Position numbers and translations under genes: made by a program. 25,713 bases of DNA, taken from positions 1 through 25,713 of the IMG/VR virus record IMGVR_UViG_3300034375_011227, one strand, 5' to 3'. Source of the stretch: a virus. Shown piece by piece: positions 1,489 through 24,200 of the stretch. Under the pieces are notes generated by a model. The model saw only the letters and a program-made list of their open reading frames with translations, ran no database searches and had not been told where the DNA came from. The first letter of the stretch is position 1, and each line of letters opens with the position of its first letter.

Positions 1489-1513
1489 GGCACTCCTTAC
1501 GGGTGCCTTTTTT
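1489..1513 (+). terminator. Rho-independent terminator closing the small-gene block
   Basis: A seven-pair stem, GGCACTC with GGGTGCC (one T-G pair), surrounds a five-base loop (CTTAC) and is followed at once by six T residues. It lies 17 bases after the last stop codon and has all the parts of an intrinsic terminator. Confidence 0.9.
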
Positions 1514-1666: not shown

Positions 1667-1802
1667 CTTTTAAATGTCTATGAGTGCCGATACTTATGTG
1701 CTTTTAAATGTCTAGTAAGGTGATGATTAAGCCCCTTTTAAATGTCTATGAGTGTCGATACTTATGTGCTTTTAAATGTACTGATACCTCGCAGTCTTTG
1801 CC
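1667..1802. repeat. Four-unit array with exact 34-bp period
   Basis: CTTTTAAATGT begins at 1667, 1701, 1735 and 1769, that is, every 34 bp exactly. Copies 1 to 3 continue with CTA. Copies 1 and 3 also share the rest of the unit (TATGAGTG, then C or T, then CGATACTTATGTG), which makes a 45-bp direct repeat (1667-1711 and 1735-1779) with one mismatch. Units 2 and 4 have unrelated filler. The core is AT-rich and the period is a little over three helical turns, as expected for protein-binding iterons or repeated operators. Confidence 0.85.
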
Positions 1803-1889
1803 CGCAAGCTATCACACTCGCACCGAAATGTCAAGAACCCCCGCGTTCTCAAATCCCCACAATCACCCTCATAAAATATAAGCACATCT

Positions 1890-1897
1890 CATAAATA
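1890..1897 (+). promoter_or_regulatory. Possible T4-type late promoter box
   Basis: The bases CATAAATA fit the NATAAATA pattern of T4-family late promoters. The box lies 20 bp before the start of the -35 of a sigma70 promoter serving the same gene. Such short AT-rich boxes arise by chance, so this is tentative. Confidence 0.35.
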
Positions 1898-1967: not shown

Positions 1968-2141
1968 ATGCCGACAGCGTATCAACAAGCGCAGAAGCAG
2001 CGTTATAGAATCACACTAGAGATTGAAGCACTTGCAGACTTTAATCCACATCAAATTAACTGGGAAGAGTTATTCGATTTGCAGGGTAATGAGTCTTGTG
2101 ATTCTTATATTGAAGACTTGTCAAATCCTGTGAGATGGTAG
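1968..2141 (+). CDS. Small protein of unknown function (57 aa)
   Basis: The ORF gives 57 residues, starting MPTAYQQAQKQRYRITLEIE and ending SYIEDLSNPVRW. A basic, glutamine-rich helix (about 1-24) is followed by an acidic half (NWEELFDLQ, about 31-39). The start is well supported: AGGGAG at 1954-1959 lies eight bases before the ATG, and a near-consensus sigma70 promoter lies just upstream. This is the first gene after the control region and is probably expressed early. The layout (promoter, ribosome site, short ORF) makes it credible although I do not recognise the family. Confidence 0.75.
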   Translation: MPTAYQQAQKQRYRITLEIEALADFNPHQINWEELFDLQGNESCDSYIEDLSNPVRW

Positions 2142-5219: not shown

Positions 5220-5621
5220 ATGCCAGCTGAGCGCATTAGTAAAGCATTTAAGGACGTTTCTATGTCCTTTCAGGTAAGTCCTCTTACCTATGATATAATT
5301 GCGCTCAAAAATGAAACTGCAATCGCTCGATCCATTCGTAATCTTGTGCTTACGGATAGGGGAGAGCGATTTTTTAACAATGATTTAGGTTCAAGAGTGA
5401 ATAGTATTCTGTTTGAATCTCTTGATGAGATTTCTGCATCGTCCGCAAAGGATGAAATTGAGAATACTATCAATTTATTTGAACCAAGAGTTAATTTAAT
5501 CTCTGTTGATGTCGAACCCAACTATGATTCAAATGAACTTAATGTTACCATTCGATACCGTATTGTTGGGATTGATGCACAACCACAACAATTGTCATTT
5601 GCATTACAGCCAACACGATAA
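5220..5621 (+). CDS. 25: Baseplate wedge subunit gp25
   Basis: This 133-residue protein is close in length to T4 gp25 (132) and belongs to the GPW/gp25 family, which also includes the sheath-anchoring TssE/gp25-like subunits of contractile systems. Key marks are an N-terminal region before about 30, AIARSIRNLVLTDRGERFF (35-52), LGSRV (56-60), the diagnostic EPR motif (Glu88-Arg90 in LFEPRVNL) and the following strands ISVDVEP (94-100) and VTIRYRIVG (109-117). In T4, gp25 sits at the wedge core with gp6, gp7 and gp53 and starts sheath assembly. The start is the first in-frame ATG after the late promoter; no clear Shine-Dalgarno sequence exists. The stop overlaps the start of gene 6 (TAATG), so the two are translationally coupled. 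Confidence 0.95.
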   Translation: MPAERISKAFKDVSMSFQVSPLTYDIIALKNETAIARSIRNLVLTDRGERFFNNDLGSRVNSILFESLDEISASSAKDEIENTINLFEPRVNLISVDVEPNYDSNELNVTIRYRIVGIDAQPQQLSFALQPTR

Positions 5622-16600: not shown

Positions 16601-19600
16601 GTTACAGAAAATACAATTTTACTTCCAGAACACTTCTTTGTAACTGGAGAAGAGTTGGTTTACTCTTATGGTAGTGATGAAACTTCAATTGGAATTACAA
16701 CAACATCTGTTTATGCGATTAAGATTAACGATCAAAAGATTAAATTGGCTGCAAGTGCTGCTGATGCACTGAACACCACTCCTGTTCCTATTGATATAAC
16801 TGGTGTTGGTGTTGGAACTTTCCATACATTAACTGCAAAAAATCAAAATACAAAATGTTTAGTTGCGATTGATAATTATATTCAATCTCCAATTGTTTCA
16901 ACTTCTGTAACAACTGGACTGTCTACAAATGCCACTAGATCGGCGGCAGTTTTAGGTTTTACTGGAATTACTTCATTCTTTGGGGGTGATTTAATTCAAA
17001 TTAATGATGAAATTATGAAGATTAATACTGTTGGTTATGGCGGAAGTGCAACTGATATTCTTGTCGATCGTGGATGGATGGGAACTGGCATTGCAACCCA
17101 TGCACAAAATTCCTTAGTTACTAAAATTGTAGGTAATTACAATATTGTTGACAATACAATCAACTTTATAACTGCACCTAAAGGTGCAATTCCAATTAGC
17201 AGCACAACAAATGCTCCTGATGAAAGAGATTGGACTGGAATTACCACATTCTCCACTTTCCAAGGAAGGGTATTTACAAGATCTGGAATAGAAAATTCTT
17301 CTGCTGAATCATACGAAACAAACTATATTTTTGATGACATTTCACAAGAATTTGATGCGACTGAAAAAACATTTACATTAAAATCAGATAAAAATAACGT
17401 CACGGGATTTAGTACAAATAATGCAGCGATATTAATCAACGGCATTTTCCAAGGCCCAACTGGACAATTGTCAGTAGAGCAGGATTATTCATTGAATGAG
17501 TCTACTGGTATTACTAGCATTACTTTTACTGGTACTGCAACTTCTATTGCATACGATCCAAATAATGCATCAATTCCTGTTGGAGGAATTATTGTTTCTG
17601 TTGGTTCTACTGGTGGTTTTGGTTATCAACCTCTTGTTTCGGCAGGAGGAACAGCGGTGGTTTCTATTGCTGGAACCATCTCTTCCGTAAGCATTGGCAA
17701 TAGCGGTTCTGGATATCGTTCTGGTTCTCAGACTGTTAATGTTGGAGTTACTACCCAAAACACTGGAACACCTTCCATTGAGAATATTGGAACAGCAACA
17801 ATCAGTGGTGGACATATTGTTAGCGTTACAATTACAAATCCTGGTACTGGATATACTTCTTCAAATCCACCAATTGTAATTTTTGATGCCCCACTCTCAT
17901 ATTCAAATATCCCTCTTGTTTATAGTGACGATTCTGCTTCTGGATTTGGAACAGAGGCAACTGTTAATATCGTGGTTGGCCAAGGTTCTAGTGTTATTGA
18001 TTTTGAAATTCAAAATTCTGGATATCGTTATAGCCAAAGTCAAATTTTGACTGTTCCCATCGGAGGAGCAACAGGAATTCCTACTGATACAACAAAAGTA
18101 TTTGAAGAATTCCAAATTACAATTGAAAGAACTGAATCCGATAAGTTTACTGGATGGCATTTTGGAGAACTTTTGGTTCTTGATAAAATTGAAAATCAAT
18201 TTAATGGAACTAAAAAATCATTCACATTAAAAAATAATTCTTCTCCAATCACTATTAGAGCAGCAAAAGGTTCTTCTATTGATGTTCAGTCAACATTGCT
18301 CGTTTTCCTGAATGATATTCTTCAAGTCCCAGGTGAAGGTTACTTATTTGTTGGTGGCAGCACCTTAGTGTTCTCAGAGGCACCTAAGGGTCCATCTGCT
18401 GATGGTTCATTTGATGGAGATACTTGTAAAATTCTCTTCTATAAGGGAAGTGGTGATGTTGATGTAGTTTTCCGCGATTTACTAGAAACTGTCAAAAAAG
18501 GAGATACTCTCCAAATTGACGGTGAGGATGTTAGGTTGGTTGAAGAAATTATTTCCTCTGATACTGTTGGAACAAATGGCTATAATGGAGCGGGGATTGA
18601 TGAAGATCCAAATAATCAAAGAGTCGTTACTTGGTGTAAGCAAACATCTGATAAAATTGTTAATGGACAGATTGTAAGTAAAGCAAGAGTATTAAATGCT
18701 GCTCTTGTAAATCCAACCACTAATATTATTCAACCAGTTGGTGTTGGTTCTACTATTGCTTATGTTGAAAGTGTAAGAACTTTCTTCAATTCTGAAAAAG
18801 AAAACAATACTACCCGTAATACTCAGAACATTGTGTTAACCTCACAAGATTCAATTGTTGGGGCTTCAGCAACCGCCGTTGTTTCTGTTGCTGGAACAAT
18901 CACTTCAATAGTTATTTCTGATGGTGGCGTTGGATATACAACTGCACCAACAGTAACTATTGCAAATCCTGTTGGATACGGAACAACTGCAAGAGCAACG
19001 GCAACTGCAACTCTTACTGGTGATTCTGTCTCTTCAATTACAGTTTCTACTCCAGGAACTGCATACACAAATACAAACCCACCTGTTGTTCTTATTGAGA
19101 TTCCACAAACCATTTATGAAAATAACACTTCAGATTCTTACACTGGAGATTTTGGCATTATCGTTGGTGTAACATCTACATCTGTTGGCGTTGCATCTAC
19201 TGGATTTGTTCTTGATTTGTTTATTCCAATTAATTCTTACTTGAGAGATACTACCATTGTTAGCACTGCTACAACCATTAGTGGTATCCAAACTGGCGAT
19301 TATTTCGTTGTCAAAGATAGTAATGTTGGAAGTGGAGTTACTTCTCTTTATCAAGACAATACTGTTCTGGGAATTACTACACAATTCTTGGATTGTGTAT
19401 ATGAAGTGGCTGCCGTTTCAACTGCAACAACATCTGTTGCTGGTGTTGGTGTTACTTACATTAGACGAGTAACCGTTAGTGTTAGTGATTTGGGTAATAT
19501 TTCTGGAATCGGAGCAACCGAATTCTATGGAGAGTATTCGTGGGGAATGGTTGACTTGGGAGCCAGAACCTCACCACAGACATTTAATTCATATACTTCG

Positions 19601-21260: not shown

Positions 21261-24200
21261 ATGTCTCAGGAAACGAATCTCAACGTAGCACCATATTTTG
21301 ACGATTTTGATGCAAATAATGACTATTATAAAGTATTATTCAAACCAGGGTACCCTGTTCAGGCAAGAGAATTAACTACTCTTCAGTCAATATTACAAAA
21401 CCAAATTGAAAAATTTGGACAGCACTTTTTTAAAGAGGGTGCAAAGGTTATTCCTGGAAATACTGCATATATTGCACAATATCCTGCAATTCAGATAGAA
21501 AACAGTTATCTTGGAATTCCAGTTTCTGACTATATCAATCAACTTATTGGTGCAAAAATTACTGGACAAACATCTGGAGTAACTGCAGTCGTAAATAAAG
21601 TTATTCTTTCAGATGAGTCCGAAAGAGGAAATACTACTCTTTATATAAGTTATCTTGGTTCAAATTCGTCAGATAATTCTACTGTCCAGTTCTCGAATGG
21701 TGAGAATTTAACCTCTAACGTTACAATTTCATCAGCAAACACTATCGTCGCTGTTGGAGAACCATTTGCAACCACCATAGCGACAGATTCGAATGCTATT
21801 GGTTCTGCATTTTCTATCTCAAATGGAATTTATTTTTGTAGAGGACAATTTTTAAATGTAAGTGATGAGACTATTATTCTTGATCAGTATTCAGATACTC
21901 CAAGTTACAGAATAGGACTTTTACTCACTGAAGAGATTGTTAATGCTGATATTGATCCATCACTAAATGATAATTCTAAGGGATTTAATAACTATTCTGC
22001 TCCAGGAGCAGATAGATTAAAAATTACATCATCTCTGTTTAAAAAAGAACTGACTGATTTTGATGACAATGGATTTATTGAACTTGCCACAATTAATAAT
22101 GGTGTTTTAAGATCTCAAAATAAAACAACTGAATACAATGTTATTGAGAGTGAATTAGCAAGAAGAACATATGCAGAATCTGGAGATTACTATGTAACTC
22201 CTTTTGATTTAACAGTCAAAGAATCTTTAAATGACAATATTGGCAATAGAGGCGTATTTAATGCCAACCAACAAACTTATGGAGGTTCAAGTCCTTCTGA
22301 AGATTTAGCATTATATCAAGTTTCGCCAGGAAAAGCCTTTGTTAAGGGGTATGAAGTTGAAACTATTAGTCCAACATTTTTGGATGTTCCAAAAACAAGA
22401 ACTCTTAAAGTATTAAACAATCAAGCAGTCAATTATCAAACTGGATCTACTCTTAAACTCAATAGAGTTTATGGTTCACCAACTATTGGAATCGGAAACA
22501 CTTATATTCTCAGTTTAAGAGACTCTAGAGTTGGCGAAACTCAAACCAATTCTCCTGGAAAAGAAATTGGTTTAGCTAGAGTTTATGATTTCAAATTAGA
22601 ATCTGGCTCATACAACGCCGCTAATTTAAATTTAAATGAGTGGAACATTTCTTTGTATGATGTTCAGACATTCTCTGAAATCACTTTAAACGAACCAATC
22701 ACACTGTCTACTCCAACCTTTGTTAAGGGCAAGTATAGTGGTGCGACTGCTTTCTTAAGTACATCAGTAACAGCATCAACAGGACTTACATTATATGATA
22801 GAAAGGGTGACTTTATAAAGAATGAACCATTTATTTTTAATGGTATCGAAAATACTAGAGTTGCGACTGCAGTAACGACTTATGGAATTTCTGATGTTAA
22901 GTCTGTTGCAGCCGCGGCAGGAGTAGGAGCAACATTTACTGCAGATACAATTCAATCCGATTTACTTAATGTTGGCGTATCTTCGATTGGAGCAGTTGAT
23001 GGTGCTACTGGAATTAGTGTAATTTCTAGCACAAATCCACAATTCCCAGGAAAAATTAAAGTTGGAAATATTCTCAAATTCAGCAATCAAACATCATCAG
23101 ATCCAGTCCTTGCTTCTGTTGTTAGTGTTGGTTCGTCACTCATTTCTGTAAGTGGAGTCACAACCGTAACTGGTATTTGTGATGGAAAACTTCCAGCATC
23201 TGCATTATCAGTTTCTGATTTAAAAGTTGTAGCAACAAAACTTGAAGGTTCTGTAGATAATTCTTTCTATACAAAACTTCCAAAAGATAATATTGCAGAA
23301 GTTGATTTAACAGACGCATCTTTGACAATCAGAAAGTCATATTCTGTTAATATTTCTGGAAATCAATTATCTGTGGCAGTCAGTGCTGGGGAAAATGAAA
23401 CTTTCTTGCCATTTGAACCAGAAAGATATGAATTAATCAAAAAAGATGGTACGATTGAAGTTTTAACTTCTGACAAACTATCTTTCAATGCATCTTCAAC
23501 TCAACTGCAGATTTATAATCTGAGTTCTGGTAATGACGATGCCACTCTGGTTGCAACTTTAACCAAGATTAAACCAAAATCTAAGATTAAACTAAAGAAT
23601 AGAGTTAATAGTATAGTCGTAGATAAATCAAAACTTGAGGCATCTGGAATTGGCGCAACAACTCTAAATGATGGACTTTCATATGGCAATTATGCGTATG
23701 GAACTAGGGTTCAAGACGAAAAAATCTCTTTGAATGTTCCAGATGTTGTAAACATTCATGGAATTTTTGAATCGGTAGATACTTCTAATGCATCTGCACC
23801 AACTTTCATACTTTCTTCGATTACAGGCCCAACTGGAAAAACTTCCGATATTATAATTGGAGAAAAAATCACTGGAAGAGATACTGGAGCAGTTGCAATC
23901 TGTGCGGAGAGATTAACAGATTCCAAGATAGCATTCATTGGCAAAAATAATAAAAACTTTAGAGAAGGTGAAGTTGTAGTATTTGCAGAATCCAATATTC
24001 AAGCAATCATTACAACAATTGATACGCCAAGTATCAATGTATCTTCAAATTATTCATTTGCTAGCGGACAAAATTCTGCTTTCTATGACTATGGTTATAT
24101 TTCTAAGAAATCTAACGTAAAAGCACCAAATAGAAAACTGAAAGTTTACTTTGAAAGTGGTTATTACCAATCAACAGATGATGGCGATATTACAACAGTA

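Follow-up and report, generated by a model that had tools for sequence, protein, structure and literature searches.

The tandem array in this viral DNA probably makes up the iterons of a replication origin in T4-like cyanophages, placed and oriented like oriE of phage T4, and in some of these viruses the host's DnaA apparently helps to start copying. Both proposals come from sequence comparison, in which the array appears as a member of a conserved element carried by many viruses of ocean cyanobacteria. It was noticed in an IMG/VR viral contig of 25,713 bases, analyzed over its full length and called the window here, which at the DNA level best matches T4-like cyanophages from the sea, among them S-SM2, Bellamy, and SynMITS9220M01. 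T4-like cyanophages are among the most abundant viruses of the sea, and their replication start has been known only as a single prediction for phage Syn9. The locus provides a precise, single-copy, testable origin candidate in the cultured phages S-SM2, S-SKS1, S-PM2, and Syn9, and it suggests that phages may draw on a host initiator even when they encode their own replisome. The iteron origin as a kind is already known. A conserved, oriE-placed version bearing DnaA boxes was not found for T4-like cyanophages in the literature searched, which also yielded no paper linking cyanophages with both a DnaA box and a replication origin, and none on iterons in cyanophages (most subscription journals lay outside the scope of these searches).

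The array consists of four exact copies of CTTTTAAATGT, with starts at 1667, 1701, 1735, and 1769 and spacings of 34, 34, and 34 bp, just as the sequence-only reading had described it. Elsewhere in the 25.7 kb, allowing up to one mismatch, the core has a single further match, at 21849. Tandem Repeats Finder places the array at 1663-1779 with a period of 34 and a score of 142, the top-scoring array of the window, and in 2,000 dinucleotide shuffles of the region an 11-mer with at least three copies never arose. Units 1 and 3 had been called nearly identical and units 2 and 4 alike in the core only, which agrees with 98% identity over 45 nt between the stretches of units 1-2 and units 3-4, versus 67% for the stretch from unit 2; two of the units have the look of a recent duplication. 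The surrounding stretch, 1473-1967, holds no convincing gene and includes AT-rich inverted repeats beside the array, again as first described. Its features, with the gene to its right, are as follows.

1489 to 1513, plus strand: hairpin and T run resembling an intrinsic terminator, closing the upstream small-gene cluster (read from sequence)
1508 to 1652, no strand assigned: AT-rich stretch, candidate unwinding region (80% AT; the AT-richest 145 bp of the window)
1597 to 1649, no strand assigned: AT-rich inverted-repeat boxes of the ATTGATACGAATTAATATCAAT type (arms 1597-1619 and 1627-1649)
1667 to 1677, plus strand: iteron core 1, CTTTTAAATGT (direct match)
1701 to 1711, plus strand: iteron core 2 (direct match)
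1735 to 1745, plus strand: iteron core 3 (direct match)
1769 to 1779, plus strand: iteron core 4 (direct match), nearest to the leftward promoter, at -196 from the start codon of the 57-aa gene, the most conserved register in relatives
1806 to 1834, minus strand: leftward sigma70-like promoter (-35 TTGACA at 1829-1834, 17-nt spacer, -10 TAGCTT at 1806-1811)
1890 to 1897, plus strand: CATAAATA, which fits the cyanomyovirus late-promoter motif NATAAATA (PMC2984593)
1910 to 1938, plus strand: rightward early sigma70-type promoter, TTGACA-17-TATACT (11 of 12 consensus bases)
1968 to 2141, plus strand: conserved 57-aa gene, phrog_12516, function unknown, the usual but not constant right neighbor

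The hairpin at 1489-1513 was not listed by a consensus scan; a G/C hairpin with a T run stands at the matching position in S-SM2, Bellamy, and SynMITS9220M01. On composition, the AT-rich stretch at 1508-1652 provides the array with an adjoining AT-rich region, and its unwinding is predicted. No initiator was recognized by PHROGs among the neighboring gene products. The window's gp25 and gp6 lie at 5220 and 5621. The possibility that the array cores are themselves late promoters was considered and rejected, since the cores read TAAATG(T), with a G where NATAAATA has its final A.

The window's intergenic stretch gave no blastn matches among phage records, and relatives were therefore reached through the flanking proteins, with the 115-aa product at 946 and the 57-aa product at 1968 as queries and up to 80 viral-contig loci taken for each; cyanophage records were also read at the matching place. 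The compared set comprised 64 distinct stretches upstream of the 57-aa gene, which share descent, so that counts made on them measure conservation rather than independent origins. In this set the TAAATG cores tend to sit near positions -196, -230, -263, and -297, counted from the start of the 57-aa gene, in a fixed register with a dominant period of 33 to 34 bp. Core pairs 32 to 35 bp apart numbered 35 in 58 regions, against 0.18 in dinucleotide shuffles. Because the core pattern had been picked after the sequences were viewed, a motif-free self-match test was added; it found a significant repeat in 17 of 59 regions, with a lag of 32 to 35 in 12 of those 17 and a lag of 68, or twice 34, in the window.

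Relatives carry from one to about six iterons, usually 33 to 34 bp apart, and the sequence of the units drifts while the spacing is kept. A search of viral contigs found exact paired copies of CTTTTAAATGT in three; the exact core is peculiar to the window, and it is the drifted core that is general. Sought at the matching place in related phages, as had been proposed, the array recurs at the same register, and the periodic core persists in relatives with conserved flanks rather than being lost from them. A functionless tandem duplication, a simple repeat expansion in an intergenic gap, would account for the variable copy number and for the two window units that look recently duplicated. It is nevertheless very improbable, given that even divergent phages keep the array in register with the promoters and that the same core occurs in the arrays of many relatives.

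Other repeats occur in and around these loci. The dispersed repeat CTGTAGCnnnTAAAnTGTnnnAnTAGTRT is found in the window at 395-423, 672-700, 900-928, and 2169-2197, with a variant at 1-29, shortly before the start codons of small ORFs; its four matches at up to two mismatches compare with none in 100 shuffles, and it may be a promoter or leader cassette of early small genes. Around 2760-2860 the window has a non-coding block, GCGGGCGT...ACTACCCTAACCTACAGAGGTGACAA, that has counterparts at about the same position in S-SM2, Bellamy, and SynMITS9220M01 and partial ones in P-SSM2 and Syn9. To the right of the element, S-SRM01 (L180, 1210-1450) carries several copies of ATCTCGACGAG, near the rightward promoter and within the ORF that comes next, and S-SKS1 (L333) has one copy there too. 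On the same side, S-8S55 (L007, 1480-1640) and S-CAM9 (L332) have a GC-rich stretch with repeated CCTGCGCGG within an intergenic region of about 1 kb.

Between the array and the rightward early promoter sits a conserved leftward promoter, which points through the iterons into the AT-rich stretch. A conserved AAATGTCAA at -142 from the 57-aa start is its -35 box, TTGACA read on the minus strand. This hexamer is perfect in 60 of the 64 stretches, where a spacer of 17 or 18 nt separates it from a -10 such as TAGACT, TAGAAT, TATGCT, or TATAAT; the window's own -10, TAGCTT, is a weak variant. Across the 22 representatives left after thinning, the -35 averages 1.88 bits of information, compared with 1.39 for the -10 and 0.99 for the spacer. 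Downstream of this promoter, the leftward strand of the window has no convincing gene. One alternative is that the promoter makes a small regulatory RNA in which the repeats, lying in the 5' part, act as RNA. The repeats would indeed fall in the transcribed part of a leftward RNA, and S-PM2 makes an antisense RNA, CfrI, elsewhere (PMC2984593). However, the region has no Rfam match, and folding is unremarkable, the leftward RNA of the window doing no better than shuffles (z of -0.7) and that of the relative locus L141 reaching a z of -1.8. Units that drift while keeping their spacing also suit a DNA-bound protein better, and we consider the RNA explanation improbable.

To the left of the iterons, relatives differ in what may be described as a swappable box module, which occurs as TGTGGAWAA boxes, as boxes containing TTGAGAAT, as TTATGC/GCATAA boxes, or as AT-rich palindromes like those of the window. 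The position of the window's palindromes is where many relatives have host-type DnaA boxes (TTTTCCACA/TTATCCACA), about 21 bp apart. The form TTTTCCACA, which reads TGTGGAAAA on the other strand, is the DnaA box of cyanobacteria (PMC4674748, PMC3480399). In 54 regions we counted 48 such boxes, versus 2 for the reversed pattern; permuting the pattern 500 times gave a mean of 0.39 and a maximum of 36, the permutation with 36 matches presumably hitting the boxes' own repeat or another local one. Spacing between boxes in these regions is 20 to 22 or 42 to 43 bp. Across 17 genomes (3.47 Mb, 85 boxes), nine pairs of boxes are closer than 60 bp, compared with 0.12 expected, and all nine lie at the locus upstream of gp25, in S-SM2, P-TIM68, S-SKS1, S-PM2, and Syn9.

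Judged from sequence, S-SKS1 is the clearest case of DnaA boxes, iterons, and leftward promoter together, with boxes at 151414, 151435, and 151456, then a 22-bp array of 4.7 perfect copies, and then the promoter. P-TIM68 departs from this order, its DnaA pair being found on the right side of the modeled promoter and iteron (R1, below) instead of the left. The window has no DnaA box near the array even at one mismatch, the nearest being at 2042, and boxes are likewise absent from many relatives. The sequence-only reading had seen in the even spacing a helically phased protein array. This holds loosely: the iteron spacings of 33 to 34 bp, the 22 bp of S-SKS1, and the 20 to 22 bp between DnaA boxes are all near multiples of 11, but the window's own 34 bp corresponds to 3.24 turns at 10.5 bp per turn. 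Values of 33, 22, and 21 bp in relatives come closer to whole turns, and helical phasing is plausible.

Several further observations concern the boxes. A module with an 11-bp period (GGTGTATCTGG GGTGTCTTCGG AGTTACTTTGC) replaces the DnaA boxes in many relatives. At 19177-19333 of S-PM2 (L336, 2678-2834), tRNA-Asn and tRNA-Leu of the RefSeq record overlie the DnaA-box cluster; ARAGORN finds no tRNA in that locus between 2000 and 3400, and the RefSeq tRNA coordinates may be shifted. The inverted pair TTWTCCACA-N5-TGTGGAWAA was tried as a marker across all viral contigs and dropped as not specific enough alone. A correlation between box position and iteron number (rho of -0.74) was given no weight, since the cores were counted between box and promoter and the relation is partly built in.

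Where it is found, the element also has one convincing site per genome. R1, a sequence-only model built on the leftward promoter together with the first iteron, was run against the genomes of 17 cyanophages and of T4, several of the phages being in the training set or close to it. It matched 12 of the 17 cyanophages, 11 of them exactly once, with a second, weak and partial match (E of 0.013) in S-SM2 and no match in T4; S-8S55, P-TIM68, S-B05, S-CAM9, S-SKS1, S-SCSM2R, and Sf-FS3 had not contributed to the model. Every best match precedes the gp25-gp6 block and is antisense to it, at a distance of roughly 1 to 8 kb from the conserved block that leads to these genes. S-B05 and S-SKS1 carry this entire block in inverted orientation, and there the match has turned with it. 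The element does not simply follow the 57-aa gene, because in S-B05 and S-CAM9 that gene is elsewhere in the genome and the element is still near gp25. Switching the filters off adds weak partial matches in S-PM2, Syn9, and Sf-CH5, which alone are unconvincing; in Syn9 a DnaA pair at 52565/52589 accompanies the weak match upstream of gp25. Evenly spaced repeats also occur in centromere-like and packaging (pac) sites, and a partition-like site had been among the functions first suggested. No ParA/ParB-like gene was recognized among the tested neighbors, though, the terminase genes are not adjacent (about 31 to 37 kb away in S-SM2), and partition would be of little use to a lytic phage; that suggestion found no support, and a partition or packaging site is extremely improbable.

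The main rival explains much of the same evidence. As a transcription control region, the locus would use iterons and boxes as operators for host or phage regulators of divergent early promoters, with no replication start; the leftward promoter would yield a non-coding or antisense RNA, and the rightward one would serve the operon of the 57-aa gene. The most strongly conserved parts are in fact the two divergent sigma70-like promoters and the late-type motif, and a protein bound to the first iteron, immediately downstream of the leftward start, would block that promoter. The box module varies from relative to relative, which is common for regulator sites. DnaA itself doubles as a transcription factor, and its boxes can be transcriptional sites. 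Against a purely regulatory role, the leftward transcript has no recognizable gene in the window, DnaA-box clusters are restricted to the locus in five phages, the rightward neighbor gene changes while the element stays, and AT-rich flank, boxes, and iterons together form the usual layout of an iteron origin. We regard a control region as rather unlikely, if still a serious competitor. Of the three functions originally offered, origin, repressor array, and partition-like site, the origin is best supported, in view of the clustered DnaA boxes, the AT-rich DNA alongside, the gene-less leftward promoter, and the T4-oriE-like placement, and an operator array stands as its rival.

By analogy, AT-rich DNA, initiator-type boxes, iterons, and a gene-less promoter occurring once per genome make up the layout of an iteron origin. 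From what is observed here, namely architecture, conservation, single-copy occurrence, position, orientation, and the clustering of DnaA-box sequences, we infer a course of events that would include DnaA binding, leftward transcription, unwinding, priming, and initiation. The proposed origin would read, from left to right, AT-rich unwinding stretch, box module, iterons, leftward early promoter, and rightward early promoter. Early in infection an initiator would load, host DnaA where boxes exist and otherwise another protein, and a second, iteron-binding protein would load on the region too. Host RNA polymerase would then send a leftward transcript through the iterons into the AT-rich stretch, and this RNA or the opened bubble could prime leftward DNA synthesis, as proposed for T4 oriE. 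GC skew, which had been suggested as a check, gave no support for an origin, with no step or minimum at the locus in the three complete genomes of S-SM2, Bellamy, and SynMITS9220M01. A broader and more tentative hypothesis, which we hold to be possible but short of probable, is that T4-like cyanophages, despite a full T4-type replisome, recruit host DnaA to a single-copy, oriE-placed iteron origin whose box module (DnaA boxes, several palindrome types, or 11-bp repeats) can be swapped from one related phage to another, with no change in the iteron register or the antisense primer promoter.

Among known systems, oriE of T4 offers the closest parallel. It lies upstream of gene 6, with a primer RNA on the minus strand, opposite to gene 6 (T4 record note); the cyanophage element is also upstream of the gene 6 baseplate block with a promoter antisense to gene 6, a likeness of position and orientation only. 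T4 oriE depends on an early promoter, and its iterons are evenly spaced direct repeats without an established role (PMC3016281). The cyanophage promoter, TTGACA-17-TAnnnT leftward, is likewise of an early, not MotA-dependent type, and evenly spaced direct repeats are present in both. Middle-promoter origins of the MotA-dependent oriF/oriG type are not expected here, because cyanomyoviruses lack motA and asiA (PMC2984593). Unlike those of T4, however, the cyanophage repeats are non-coding, with a spacing of 33 to 34 bp. At T4 oriE just one tandem family was found, which has a 24-bp unit, lies inside gene 5, and encodes VxGxxxxx octapeptides (T4 79402-79569; L182 1903-2070), and the T4 "iterons" may be a coding by-product of gp5. 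Homology between them and the cyanophage array was rejected on the grounds that they are a coding repeat of gp5 and that T4 has no R1 match. The 57-aa protein gave no BLASTP alignment with T4 RepEA or RepEB.

Iteron plasmid origins such as R6K gamma, P1 oriR, and RK2 oriV combine an AT-rich stretch, DnaA boxes, and tandem iterons. The same parts stand side by side in some of the cyanophages, as in S-SKS1 with its perfect 22-bp array next to three DnaA boxes, but no adjacent Rep initiator gene was recognized, most cyanophage units have a 33 to 34 bp spacing and a drifting sequence, a T4-type replisome is encoded by the phage itself, and the window has no DnaA box. With cyanobacterial chromosomal oriC the locus shares the DnaA-box sequence TTTTCCACA (PMC4674748, PMC3480399), whereas the phages have two or three boxes about 21 bp apart beside non-DnaA iterons and a leftward promoter, and their locus is not beside dnaN and has no GC-skew signal. 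The nearest precedent among cyanophages is Syn9, for which, according to the citing paper, a single theta origin was predicted (Weigele et al. 2007, as cited in PMC2984593); the element described here is likewise a single predicted origin in a T4-like cyanophage.
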